Of a stretch of 64,000 nucleotides of DNA, positions 9,990 to 63,076 are shown in pieces. This DNA comes from Cynocephalus volans (taxonomy: Eukaryota; Chordata; Mammalia; Dermoptera; Cynocephalidae), in NCBI RefSeq assembly GCF_027409185.1, contig NC_084461.1, positions 187,834,001 to 187,898,000 on the forward strand, written 5' to 3'. The position numbers and the translations under genes were made by a program. How positions within the stretch are numbered: position 1 is the stretch's first letter; every line of letters starts with the position of its first letter. A model generated the notes under the pieces. The model was not told the DNA's origin. It did not search any database and was given only the letters and a program-made list of their open reading frames with translations.

Positions 9990-10460
9990 AAACTCATCAA
10001 TTGTCAAGGAAATAGGGTTTTACATTGCAATGGTAAGGACCACAGGTTTTAGAATCATATAAACCAGGGTGTGAGTCCTGCTTGCCAGTGGCATAAAGTT
10101 TCTTCACCCCACACTGAGCCTCTATTTTCTCATCTGTTGAATCAGTGACTCCCCACCGGGAGTGACTTTGTCCCCCAGGAGACATCTTGCAATGTCTGGA
10201 GACATTTTTTTGCTTGTCTCAACTGGGGTGAAAGGAGGTGGTTGCTACTGGAACCTAGAAGGTAGAGGCCAGGGTCACTGCTAAATATCCTACAATGCAC
10301 AGAGCAGCCCCTCCACGATAAAGAATTTTCTGGCCCAAAATGGCCATACTGCTGAGGTTGAAAATCTTGTGTTAAATGGAGGTGATGATGATAGCTAAGT
10401 TGAAGAGCTGTTGTGAGCATCCAGTGGAAACTTTTGTTCAATATCTGTCATTTCTACCTT
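9990..10460 (+). repeat. MIR SINE, split by MER5A
   Basis: MIR text runs to ctattttctcatctgttgaat at 10143 and resumes with gttaaatggaggtgatgatg after the MER5A. The 8-bp host duplication is TGTTGAAT versus TGTTAAAT. Confidence 0.8.
10144..10370 (+). repeat. MER5A hAT MITE inserted in MIR
   Basis: Carries tctggagacatttttttgct and ctaaatatcctacaatgcac. The 8-bp duplication expected of hAT elements flanks it, one base changed. Confidence 0.85.
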
Positions 10461-10598
10461 TCCCCACCCTCCTTGTAAATGCCACAAGTGCCAGGACCAG
10501 ATGATTCTAGATCAGTGTTCTGTATCATCAACTAAAACATGGAAAGTGCTAAGTAAATTATTATTAATTGTTGAAATATTTAGGAAATAAGTGCAAAT

Positions 10599-10673
10599 CA
10601 ACAAATGGATCAAGAAGCTCCAGTGGCGCAATCGGTTAGCGCGCGGTACTTATATGACAACAAATGGATCAAG
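10599..10673 (+). pseudogene. Tailless tRNA-Ile(UAU) 5'-half retropseudogene with target-site duplication
   Basis: Bases 10617-10657 match the 5' half of the mammalian intron-containing tRNA-Ile(UAU): gctccagtggcgcaatcggt, the D arm, then anticodon TAT at about 10651-10653 and the start of the intron (tatatga). The A box (tggcgcaatcgg) is present and the B box and 3' half are absent. A perfect 16-bp duplication CAACAAATGGATCAAG lies at 10599-10614 and 10658-10673. There is no A-tail. This is the form of 'tailless' retropseudogenes moved by L1 machinery, with the RNA cut in the anticodon/intron region. It is not a working tRNA gene. Confidence 0.85.
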
Positions 10674-10730
10674 TCAAGGGTTCAGACACCCTTACTGGCC
10701 AGCCACCAAAAATAAATAAATAAATAAATT
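10674..10730 (+). repeat. CYN-like SINE, 3' fragment
   Basis: tcaagggttcagacaccctt and actggccagccaccaaaaa followed by (AAAT)n is the SINE 3' end. The 5' part is missing; the tRNA retropseudogene sits at its truncated edge. Confidence 0.8.
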
Positions 10731-10738
10731 GTAGCTAT

Positions 10739-10752
10739 GATTATTATTGTAT

Positions 10753-10784
<32 letters not shown>

Positions 10785-10785
10785 G
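10739..10785 (+). repeat. Trinucleotide microsatellite (ATT)/(ATC)/(CAG)8
   Basis: Eight uninterrupted CAG units at 10762-10785 follow ATC units. It is non-coding here. Confidence 0.95.
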
Positions 10786-10789
10786 CTGC

Positions 10790-11695
10790 ACCATCTTTCC
10801 AGCCCCTGGCTCAATGCCTGAGGCATAATTGGTAATTGGTCCTCAATATTTGTCGAATGAATAAATGAGACGTAAAGGATTAAACGGCTGATTTACATGC
10901 TTTGGAGAGAGATTGGAAGCTCTTGAGAAATAGGTGTGGTCTTTTCCTCTGTATTTTCAACAAGGAATTTTGAGACACTACTTTAAAGAATTGACCCCTC
11001 TGCCAAGCCATGAAGTGGGGGGCCTGACTCTTAAGTCATGGAGAGATTAGGATGCACATCTTGCTTAGCTGAGGCAAAAAGGAAAACGAGCCAGGTTTTT
11101 TACAAACTCTCTGTGAAACAAGAGCTGTTTGCAGGGCCCAGGAACACGCTCTGTCCCGTGTTTAATTTCTTCCATCTGTCTGGTATCTGACCTCTTCTGC
11201 CCTCTAAGCCATTGCCACATATTGTCTGCGTACGTTTCCATATAAGGTGATCTCTCTCTCTTCCTCTCTTTCCCCTCTCTGTGTTTCCTGCACTCTGTTC
11301 TCCCTCTCTCTGCCTTCCCTGGCGGACTCTGCTGTGAGGACGGATGGTTGGAGAGCGGGAAGGGGCAGGGGGCTGCCAAGGAATGTGGCAGGTTTATTTT
11401 TGTTCCTGCCGCATTCTTTGCCTAGCCTGCAGGCCCCAGCCACTTGGGGATGTCACATGCTGATAAGACAGTAGGGTGACTGAAATCTGTGTCTCAAATC
11501 CACAACACCCCAGGTGTGAGCCATCGTCACGGAGTTGAGGGGGGGCGGGTGTGGGAGAGTCAGGGACTCTGAGGTCATGGGACTTGCCTATTCCCACTGG
11601 ACTGTGTCTGGTTCCCAGAGAGACAAGTTTGATACTTCAGAGAAGCAATTGCAGGAACTGAGATCTGTAACCACCTAGGCTCATCTCTTTGCAAA
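10790..11695. other. Intergenic; L2/MIR trace, then unclassified
   Basis: 10800-10865 reads like an L2/MIR terminus (tcaatatttgtcgaatgaat). From 10870 to 11690 there is CT-rich sequence (11250-11320) and a G-rich run (11535-11550). ORFs on both strands overlap each other and show no protein signature. Confidence 0.45.
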
Positions 11696-21500: not shown

Positions 21501-23660
21501 GGGTGAGTGCTTGTGAATTAGCGTGGAGATTTGCGCTGGAAGAGAGAGAATAATTGCTTTTGCTAATTTTAGAGCGCAAAGTCCACTGGGCACAGACAAC
21601 CTACCTGTTCAGTATATTTGTCCTTAGCGAGTGACCATTTGAAAGCTGGTGGGCTACTGGGTGTGGGGGGAATAAACCCAACTACGGGAGTTTCTTTCCC
21701 TTCCTGGTGATGTTTTATTAGTTTATCTAGATTTTTGGTTTGGTTTTATTTTTTTGAAAGGGATAAAAGGATAGACCTATAGATATTTCTGAATCATTTA
21801 AAATTAAATATATATGTGTGTGTGAAAGTTACGACGTGGACTTTTACTTAAAATACTTTTTAACAGTTACACCTCCGATGTGGATTTTTTTTTACGTCTG
21901 TAAAGGTTTTCCTTTTTACAGCTTGAAGGAAACCTCAGATTTATAAGCCAGACTGGTTACCCTTTCTGTCCTCTTTCGACTTATTTTTTAGCAATACTCA
22001 TAATTTTATCATCATTCTGGAGAATGATAGTATCTTTACATTTGATGTTTTCTAAATATCCAGCTCCACCCATCCAATGTAAAAAGCCCATTTCAGAGCA
22101 AAATGCTTGCCGCCACGACTTGTTTCAGTTTTTACTATTAGGGAGCACTGAAGTAATTTTTTCTTTAGTTCTTTTTTTTTTTTTTTTTTAGCAATTCATT
22201 TTTTTAAATTGCTAAAGTTAAAGCAGTTTATCTTGGTAAAGCGGTTTCAGCAATTAAGAAATCAGATATTCAATATTTTTTAAAGTTATGATCTTTCTCT
22301 TCACCAACCTGTTTTTATTTAGCCTTAGGTTTAGATTTTCTTCTGGTCTCGGACCTGTGAACAAATTCGTTCAGTTTAGTAGAAAAAGTCACTTTTAGAC
22401 GCACTGGGTGTTCAAAAATGGAATTGGGCACAGATACTGTCCTCAGGAATTTATAGTTTAGCAGAGAAGAGACAATGTGCACATAAGGAATTAGTACAAG
22501 GTAAAAAAAAGTAGCGCTAGAGAGAAGTGAGGATAAAGTCTGGTCAACTTGGAGGGCAGGTGCTGTGACTCTGCTGCAGAACCTGTTGGGTAGCTTGAGA
22601 AAGATTTCCTGGAGGAATTTGCATTTGGTGGGCAGGGCTTGAAAGTCAGTTGGAATTTGCACCTTTGGAGATGGGGGAAGGCAGAGCAGTCATTCTAGGC
22701 AGAGAAAACAGCATTAACTAAAGGCAGAGGTGGAAAATCTATTTTAAGGAGAAGTGACTGTTTCAATTGGCTGAAGTTTGAAAGGGTGAAAGGTGACAAT
22801 TTGGAAATAAAGTTGGGAAAGACTAAGTTGAGCTAGAGCATATAAAGTCTCGAAATCCATGAAGTTTGGACTTTATTTTGTACAGTATGAGACACCTACA
22901 AATGATTTGGAATGGGGAGAGGTGGAGACCAGAAGGCAGGAGACTGTTGCCATTCAAGGCAAAAGGAAATGAAGGCTTTAATTAGTCAAGAGTGGCAGAA
23001 TTGATGCCTAAGGACAAAAGGAAATGAAGACCATTATTAGTCAAGGGTGGCAGAATTGATGCCAAGCCAATAACAGAAATGGGTAAAGAATGCTTGGTGG
23101 AGGAGACCGAAACAAAACTGAAGAGCACTTGCCCAGCTAAAGTGTGTAGCCTCTCTCAGCTTCTGTTGGTTGTGACCAAGCAGGAATGTAGGCCTATGGT
23201 TGCCAAATCTGATTTTAAACAGAAACTGGAAGTCTGGATTTTAATGTAAAAATCTATCAATGTTTTAAATGTAGAATATTAATTTTTAAAAAAATTAGAA
23301 GCATGTCTGCAGGCTAATAGGTATTTAATCCCTGGGTAGAAATTGTGCAGCTGTATGGGAGAGATGCTTATGTAGGTAGGATTTATTCATTTGTCCATGT
23401 TAATTCAGATGACTGCTGTTACAGCAGATGCATATACAAAAACATTTGATGTTAAGTATTAACAGTATATACTGCAGCTTTTGTAATAAAGTCTTCATTC
23501 TCTGATATCTTTCAGCAAAATAGCCCTTTTCACAGCATTTTGTATGCCATGTAGAATTATGCTTTTCTTGCCTACTCCTATGAACTTAATTCTGATATTT
23601 TTCCCCAGAACTTTTGTTACCAATATTGAGGATTTTTTTTTCTGTATTTTTACTTTTTAG
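21069..23660 (+). other. IFT81: IFT81 intron 1
   Basis: 2.6 kb. 22400-22930 holds an old interspersed repeat. 22961-23068 is a 54-bp tandem duplication. A T run sits at 22170-22190, and an unnamed repeat at 23195-23340. The intron ends in a good tract and AG at 23659-23660. Confidence 0.6.
22961..23068 (+). repeat. 54-bp tandem duplication
   Basis: aaaaggaaatgaaggcttta at 22961 recurs at 23015 as aaaaggaaatgaagaccatt. The shared tail is gtcaagrgtggcagaattga. Confidence 0.85.
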
Positions 23661-45443
<21,783 letters not shown>

Positions 45444-61579: not shown

Positions 61580-63076
61580 TTCTCTTTTTCATTTGCAGTT
61601 TTGTTCTACCAGTGGGTTTTGTTCTTTCTTGTGTATTCGTGATAGTGATTATCATTTTTTGGATTCCAGGTGCAGGATTTCCTTGAGTATTTTTTGTAGG
61701 GCTGGTTGTGTGGTGGTGAACTCCTGCAGTTTTTGTTTGTTTGGAAAATACGCTATTTTTCCCTCGTTTCTGAAAGATAGCCTTGCTGGGTATAGTATTC
61801 TTGGCTGACAGGTATTTTCTTTTAGTATTTTGAGTATATCATCTCATTTTCTTCTGGCCTGTAGAGTTTCTGTTGAGAAATCTGCTGTTAGTTTTATAGG
61901 GTCTCCCTTATAGGTGACTCGATGCTCTTCTCTTGCTTCTTTTAAGATTCCCTCTTTGTCTTTGAGCTTTGCCAAGATTATAATGTGTCCTGGAGAGGAT
62001 GTTTTTGGGTTGAATCTGTTTGGGAATCTTTCAGCCTCCTGGATCTGAAGGTCTTTTTCTCTCCCTATACCTGGGAAGTTTTCCATTATTATTTTGTTGA
62101 ATAGGTTTTCCATGCCTTTTCCTTTCTCCTCCCCCTCTGGAGCACTCATGATTCGAATAATTGTGTGCTTAAGGTTGTCTGCTAGCTCTCTTAAATTTTC
62201 TTCTTTTGTAAAATATTTTTTTCCTTTTGTTTTTTTGTCTCCCTGGGTTATTTCTAAAAGGCTATCTCAAGCTCAGAAATTCTTTATTCTGCTTGCTCTA
62301 GCTTGCTGCTTAAACTATCAGGTGTGTTTTTTATTTCATTGAGTGAATCTTTCAGTTCCATGAGTTCTGCTACATTCTTTTTAAAGATATTAATCTCTTT
62401 GTAAATTTCCTCTTTCATATCCTGGACTTTTTCCCCTCATTTCCTTATGTTGTCTGAGTCTTCTTGTGTCTTAGTAAGTTTCCTTAAGATTGTTGCTCAG
62501 AATTCCTTTCTACTCATTTCAAGGGTTTCTTGCTCTATAGTGTCTGGTATTTGAGAATTACTGTTTTCTTTTGGTGGTGTCATATTTTCTTGGGTTTTTG
62601 TATTTCTGGTATCCCTATGTTGAAGTCTGGTCATCTGGTGGAGCAGTTGCTTCTTCTGTTACTCTCGAGTGGGCTTTGAGGAGAGAGACATCCTCTTCTT
62701 TTTCTGATCTCTGCTGATGACTCTGCTTGTGTCAGTGCAGTCGAGTGTCTGGCAAGCCACCCACACAGTGGCTGTGGCTACTGCTGTGGCATCAAGCTGC
62801 TTTTGTGGCAGCCATGGCTGTGGCAGTGGCTGTGGTAGGCCACCCATGCAGAAGTGGTGTTTTTGGCATGCTGTTTCTTGCCTGATTCTGAGAAGAGGGG
62901 CTGACCATTGTCTCCTGCCTAGGACCCTGGGCTTGCTGTGCTTCTTGCCTGCTTCTGGGCAGAGGGGACTGGCCCTTGGCTCCTACCTAGGACCCTGGGT
63001 GTGCTCTGTTTCTTGCCCGCTTCTGGCACAGGGGGCAGACCCTTGGCTCCTGCCTAGGACCCCAGGCCTGCTCTCT
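61580..63076 (-). mobile_element. LINE-1 5' end: monomer-bearing 5'UTR and decayed ORF1, antisense
   Basis: Reading on the minus strand, 63076 to about 62640 is 5'UTR, with three tandem 67-68 bp units (62874-63075) then the region shared with 19848-20169. From about 62590 ORF1 runs: a Lys/Glu-rich coiled coil with stops, then the C-terminal nucleic-acid-binding domain at 62149-61844 (FPGIGREKDLQIQEAERFPNR; ends DFSTETLQARR). The ORF1 end continues to about 61620 in shifted frames. The element is broken; ORF2 is missing to the left. Confidence 0.85.
62874..63075 (-). repeat. Three tandem 67-68 bp L1 5'UTR monomers
   Basis: The anchor cctaggaccc recurs at 62918, 62986 and 63053. Each unit also has a cttctkggcasaggggs block. 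Confidence 0.9.

Follow-up and report, generated by a model that had tools for sequence, protein, structure and literature searches.

A tailless retropseudogene, almost certainly derived from an unspliced tRNA-Ile(UAU) precursor, and its relatives in the genome of Cynocephalus volans

The window, that is the whole stretch of DNA analysed here, comprises 64 kb with 36.7% GC and lies at C2:187834001-187898000 of a 2.81-Gb assembly; its SINEs and a LINE-1 remnant point to a mammal. On its plus strand, a piece of tRNA-Ile(UAU) is bounded by two copies of a 16-bp target-site duplication, CAACAAATGGATCAAG, at 10599-10614 and 10658-10673, which match each other exactly (16/16 bp), as an earlier note drawn from the sequence alone had stated. 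The whole window contains 16 exact 16-mer pairs no more than 200 bp apart; 14 of them are not of low complexity and lie at six places (grouped by eye). In simulated first-order Markov windows (n = 100), two exact 16-mer pairs within 200 bp arose. Since such pairs are rare in the simulated windows, the perfect pair around the tRNA piece cannot be put down to chance.

Directly behind the left duplication copy lies AA (10615-10616, plus strand), the end of the 5' leader of the pre-tRNA. G10614, the last base of that copy, may double as the first base of the leader, which would then read GAA; the leader of the tRNA-Ile-TAT gene L043 of the same genome ends in ...gcggccgaa. Exon 1 follows with 38 nt including the anticodon TAT (10617-10654, plus strand), identical at 38/38 nt to the exon 1 of tRNA-Ile(UAU) printed in the available part of PMC12135372, and identical also to the genes L042, L043 and L044. 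The next three bases, TGA (10655-10657, plus strand), are the start of the tRNA intron, which in L043 begins TGACAGTG, and the CA that follows from 10658 is common to intron and duplication. After exon nt 38, the window thus reads TGACA where the mature tRNA has ATGCC, which indicates that sequence of other origin begins there. The match of TGA(CA) to the intron start of the genome's own L043 bears out the proposal of the earlier note that the piece ends inside the intron. The length of 41 nt given there holds for the 38 exon and three intron bases (five with the shared CA) and leaves out the leader AA. No A tail is present, as the RNA-derived part abuts the right duplication copy directly.

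ARAGORN finds no tRNA at this locus, its sole match in the window being at 24861-24937, and the 3' half of the tRNA is absent, so that the piece is not complete with a B box; a functional tRNA gene at the locus was rejected on these grounds. A scan of 10000-11400 against Rfam gave six matches up to an E-value of 5, none of them near its gathering score. Exact searches with the tRNA piece returned 0 stretches each for the 38-mer and the 30-mer in viral_contigs and for the 38-mer in genome_contigs.

Schmitz et al. reportedly dealt with tailless retropseudogenes in 2004. According to the accessible text of Noll et al. (2015, PMC5322556), these are 3'-truncated copies of tRNAs or pre-tRNAs with a complete 5' end, no A tail and a duplication of 8-35 nt, inserted at targets complementary to the last 2-18 nt of the RNA-derived part. 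The authors give 2,402 clear human cases, list unprocessed tRNAs among the sources and favour internal priming. Each of the structural traits is found here. The 16 bp of the duplication fall within the range given, and the window copy keeps 38 exon and 3-5 intron nt of a gene of 93 nt (length taken by eye on L043), the class minimum being at least 10 nt truncated and at least 30 nt long. The class requires an (almost) complete 5' end and, for tRNAs, tolerates as many as 20 nt of precursor; here the exon is present from nt 1, behind the leader end AA, which reads GAA if the shared base is counted. For the 3' end of the RNA part, a loop or single-stranded region is expected; the copy ends beside the anticodon loop, 3-5 nt inside the intron, a position that may agree with this. 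Folding covered the 43-nt piece alone, which shows no unusual stability (z 0.73). The available part of PMC2912911 adds a count of microhomology for 238 3' junctions already published for tailless tRNA copies. A human partial copy of 38 nt (GRCh37 chr7:44465584-44465621), listed in the accessible part of PMC4694795, likewise consists of a lone exon 1 of tRNA-Ile-TAT and is identical to the window copy at 36/38 nt, in a comparison without flanks. Nothing essential separates the locus from the tailless retropseudogenes, of which it is a further case; what differs is that the source here leads back to a particular tRNA-Ile-TAT gene in the same genome.

A comparison with the tRNA-Ile-TAT genes and introns of the species, as suggested before, was made by an exact pattern search of the 2.81-Gb genome, which found four places and may miss genes that differ in the pattern. 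Three of them (L042, L043 and L044) resemble genes, and the fourth (L041) is a retrocopy. Their introns begin with CGGCAGTGC.. in L042, TGACAGTGC.. in L043 and CAGCAGTAC.. in L044. The leader of L044 ends in GGA and that of L043 in GAA. With its TGACA and its leader end, ..GCGGCCGAA, the window copy fits L043, to which leader end, exon 1 and intron start all correspond. This gene lies on contig C18 (pattern match C18:56972114-56972154), at the same place as the search match L015 described below, and judging from these shared bases it is the likely source of the window copy. The presence of both its leader end and its intron start indicates that the copy derives from an unspliced and unprocessed pre-tRNA. 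When the intron sequence was sought by its letters in print, no tRNA paper containing it was found; a 12-letter match of an intron piece in the available text of a chicken bone paper (PMC10669906) was regarded as fortuitous.

The window copy is not singular but one of at least 40 in the genome. The sample was drawn from one DNA search as the best 40 scored matches of 318 first-look candidates, a number that may include other things, and it leans to well-preserved copies of L043 type because the query also contained SINE sequence and TGACA. These 40 matches comprise one gene (L015, the same as L043), the window copy and 38 other copies; the 40 copies read are 39 of these matches together with L041 from the pattern search. 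Even the lowest match listed has 44 bp at 100%, and more copies probably exist. The best flanking duplication measures 9-24 bp in all 40 (median 17) and is exact in 35, a family-wide tally that stands without a null; the shortest, 9 bp in L005, is weak alone, as shuffles at the window locus reached up to 10. Three copies have A-rich stretches at their borders (the duplication of L029 is A-rich, and those of L008 and L012 start with or near an A run), and since the A run stands in both duplication copies, it was read as target and not as tail. By eye, L008 (at about 1501) and L012 (at about 200) occupy nearly the same place in one apparent interspersed repeat (CTTC, then AAAAAGTTCATGG), possibly a shared target.

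The right duplication copy starts after RNA nt 35-41 in 38/40 copies, after nt 50 in L008 and after nt 69 in L041. At positions -3 to -1 before the exon, 37 of the 40 carry GAA and three carry GGA, although in several copies, the window copy included, these bases lie partly or wholly inside the duplication. From the intron bases and the overlap with the duplication, 35 copies were assigned to L043 and four to L044, with one ambiguous; those that break at or before nt 38 were placed by overlap alone. All three GGA copies (L023, L027 and L041) fall to L044, so that leader and intron agree on the same gene. L006 was assigned to L044 by two bases of the CAG-type intron, yet shows GAA at the leader position; in this copy the duplication extends up to the exon and so covers the leader. 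L041 (C4:148563887) is a tailless unspliced pre-tRNA-Ile(UAU) copy with the whole intron and a 16-bp duplication, TGGATTCTTATGCCTT. It ends in the T arm, in our reading where the variable loop meets the T stem and not in a loop.

The copies also bear on how the RNA was primed. When the best of the three genes is taken for each copy, the start of the duplication continues the pre-tRNA by at least 1 nt in 40/40 copies, with a mean of 2.9 nt. Random flanks given the same treatment yield a mean of 0.59, and the largest of 2000 resamplings reached 1.10. With L043 alone as reference, overlap is seen in 35 of 38 copies (L035 being left out for a core mismatch, and L041 not yet included in this pass), with a mean of 2.7-2.8 against 0.38 in the null; the copies lacking overlap are L006, L027 and L032, the last owing to an exon mismatch. 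Such an excess is what priming of reverse transcription within the RNA, at a nicked target, would be expected to produce. In the window copy itself the overlap is 2 nt (CA), at AAAT/CAACAAA, which is weak alone but within the 2-18 nt known for the class. The nick context AT/CAACAAA agrees by eye only in part with the published consensus TT/WAAAAWW, at six of nine positions, or at seven of nine if the nick is placed one base further on.

The locus is almost certainly a tailless retropseudogene for which an unspliced, leader-bearing pre-tRNA-Ile transcript served as template and was primed internally. The exon match of 38/38, the duplication and the missing A tail agree in this with the main claim of the earlier note. 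The template would have been a Pol III transcript of the tRNA-Ile-TAT gene on C18, still unspliced and with its leader on, and its leader end, its exon 1 and the first bases of its intron are all seen in the copy. The enzyme was most likely the LINE-1 reverse transcriptase, judging by how long the duplications are and by the literature. A nick at the target may have left a DNA end able to pair, through its last bases, with the CA of the intron; reverse transcription would then have started inside the RNA and run to its 5' end, as 40 copies of the same build suggest. Repair of a staggered second cut would account for the 16-bp duplication observed.

An alternative template is a tRNA half cut by angiogenin, RNase T2 or the splicing endonuclease, in place of a whole pre-tRNA primed internally. 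The length of the piece fits a 5' half, a cut within the anticodon-intron region of a pre-tRNA is possible, and the available text of PMC13174262 proposes halves as the source of its 21 tRNA/LINE-1 chimeras. In those chimeras a tRNA 5' half (there nt 1-37) was likewise inserted by the LINE-1 machinery; however, it is joined to LINE-1, mostly antisense, whereas the window copy stands alone between its own duplication. Several observations make a cut half unlikely. The RNA was not mature, since its 5' leader is present, and cleavage at splicing would have removed all of the intron bases that are seen. Fifteen copies break after nt 38, and in 12 of them the duplication opens with TGA, as does the intron of L043, so that the intron was most likely present at priming and the splicing-endonuclease product, which ends at nt 38, was most likely not the template. 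Moreover, the ends vary over several neighbouring positions and follow the target sequence, and L041 extends beyond the intron; its entire intron and retained leader point to a whole unspliced pre-tRNA, internally primed. The accessible part of PMC5322556 also reports that such cut RNAs were sought for 5S and U2 and none found (data not shown there). Where the source had earlier been given as pre-tRNA or a cleaved half of it, the first option is thus supported by leader and intron; the second, although possible, is not needed to explain copies whose ends follow the target.

The right duplication copy overlaps the 3' part of an older SINE (10670-10729, plus strand), related to tRNA-Ile and ending in an (AAAT)n tail, which belongs to the target region and lies outside the inserted piece. 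From about 10670 on, this sequence resembles the other tRNA-Ile-related SINE copies of the window in nhmmer matches and when the joined flanks are aligned. Where its 5' edge lies is uncertain, as the aligned flanks put some bases further upstream against the SINE too. A dimeric tRNA-Ile-related SINE lies at 28780-28975 of the window. A tailed tRNA-related SINE at 38279-38461 (insert 38297-38443), with a perfect 18-bp duplication, AAAAAAACAAGTATCATG, at TTTTTT/AAAAAAA, stands in contrast to the tailless copy described here.

This neighbourhood had raised the question of template jumping, in which reverse transcription would have begun on the SINE tail and jumped to a tRNA-Ile(UAU) RNA, so that both parts entered jointly. 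The tRNA piece does lie at the edge of the SINE and in register with its missing 5' half, the two halves aligning with a complete SINE, which may explain the attention given to it, and chimeras of tRNA halves and LINE-1 are reported in the part of PMC13174262 available. Nevertheless, we consider joint entry very improbable. The 16-bp duplication brackets the tRNA piece alone, with a repeat score of 16 that 0/500 shuffles reached. No direct repeat was found around the composite of tRNA piece and SINE (score 6.0, matched by 309/500 shuffles), nor a duplication of the SINE's own at the locus (404/500 shuffles score as well). The SINE-like CAAG at 10670-10673 falls within both duplication copies, so that the target most likely contained the SINE part already, and the other copies read, whose surroundings are unclassified, also have their duplications around the tRNA piece alone. 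The tRNA piece thus most likely entered a SINE that was already in place, either within it or at its edge. The intact exon 1 would also fit what is left of a formerly complete tRNA gene, or a duplication at the DNA level, but this is scarcely credible with the duplication sitting exactly at both ends and with 40 copies that end at nt 35-41 (38 copies), 50 (one) or 69 (one), each with its own flanking duplication.

The age of the insertion was bounded from above. In 75 lineage-sites no difference is seen, so that at the upper 95% bound there are 0.04 substitutions per site. The mammalian rate is near 2 substitutions per site per thousand million years, which with this bound puts the age under about 20 million years. 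Without the 3' half and hence without the B box, the piece is most likely functionless and unable to spread.

Taken alone, the locus is real but ordinary and adds little beyond what is known. The family, however, shows that pre-tRNA still unspliced and carrying its leader reaches the machinery of retroposition. It also offers a natural test of internal priming, since its copies are well preserved, go back to a single traceable pre-tRNA and have kept leader, intron bases and clean duplications. In the open-licence literature, no tRNA-Ile family of this kind was announced in the titles and beginnings of abstracts listed. Tentatively, and leaning somewhat against it ourselves, we suggest that one pre-tRNA-Ile(UAU) gene may have seeded a large lineage-specific family, perhaps of hundreds of tailless copies, since the intron start UGACA would form a loop unusually well primed by nicked targets. 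If this is true, the copies would record both the transcription start of the pre-tRNA and the rule by which LINE-1 primes on folded RNA.

Other features of the window were recorded as well. When 10 of its 19 open stretches were scanned, a remnant of the RNA-binding domain of LINE-1 ORF1 (PF02994, E 3.7e-21) was found on the minus strand at 61847-62266. Two interleaved direct repeats of 15 and 17 bp with a spacing of 55 bp, resembling a diverged tandem duplication, lie at 22960-23063, and at 62871-63062 there are diverged tandem repeats spaced about 67 and 135 bp apart.
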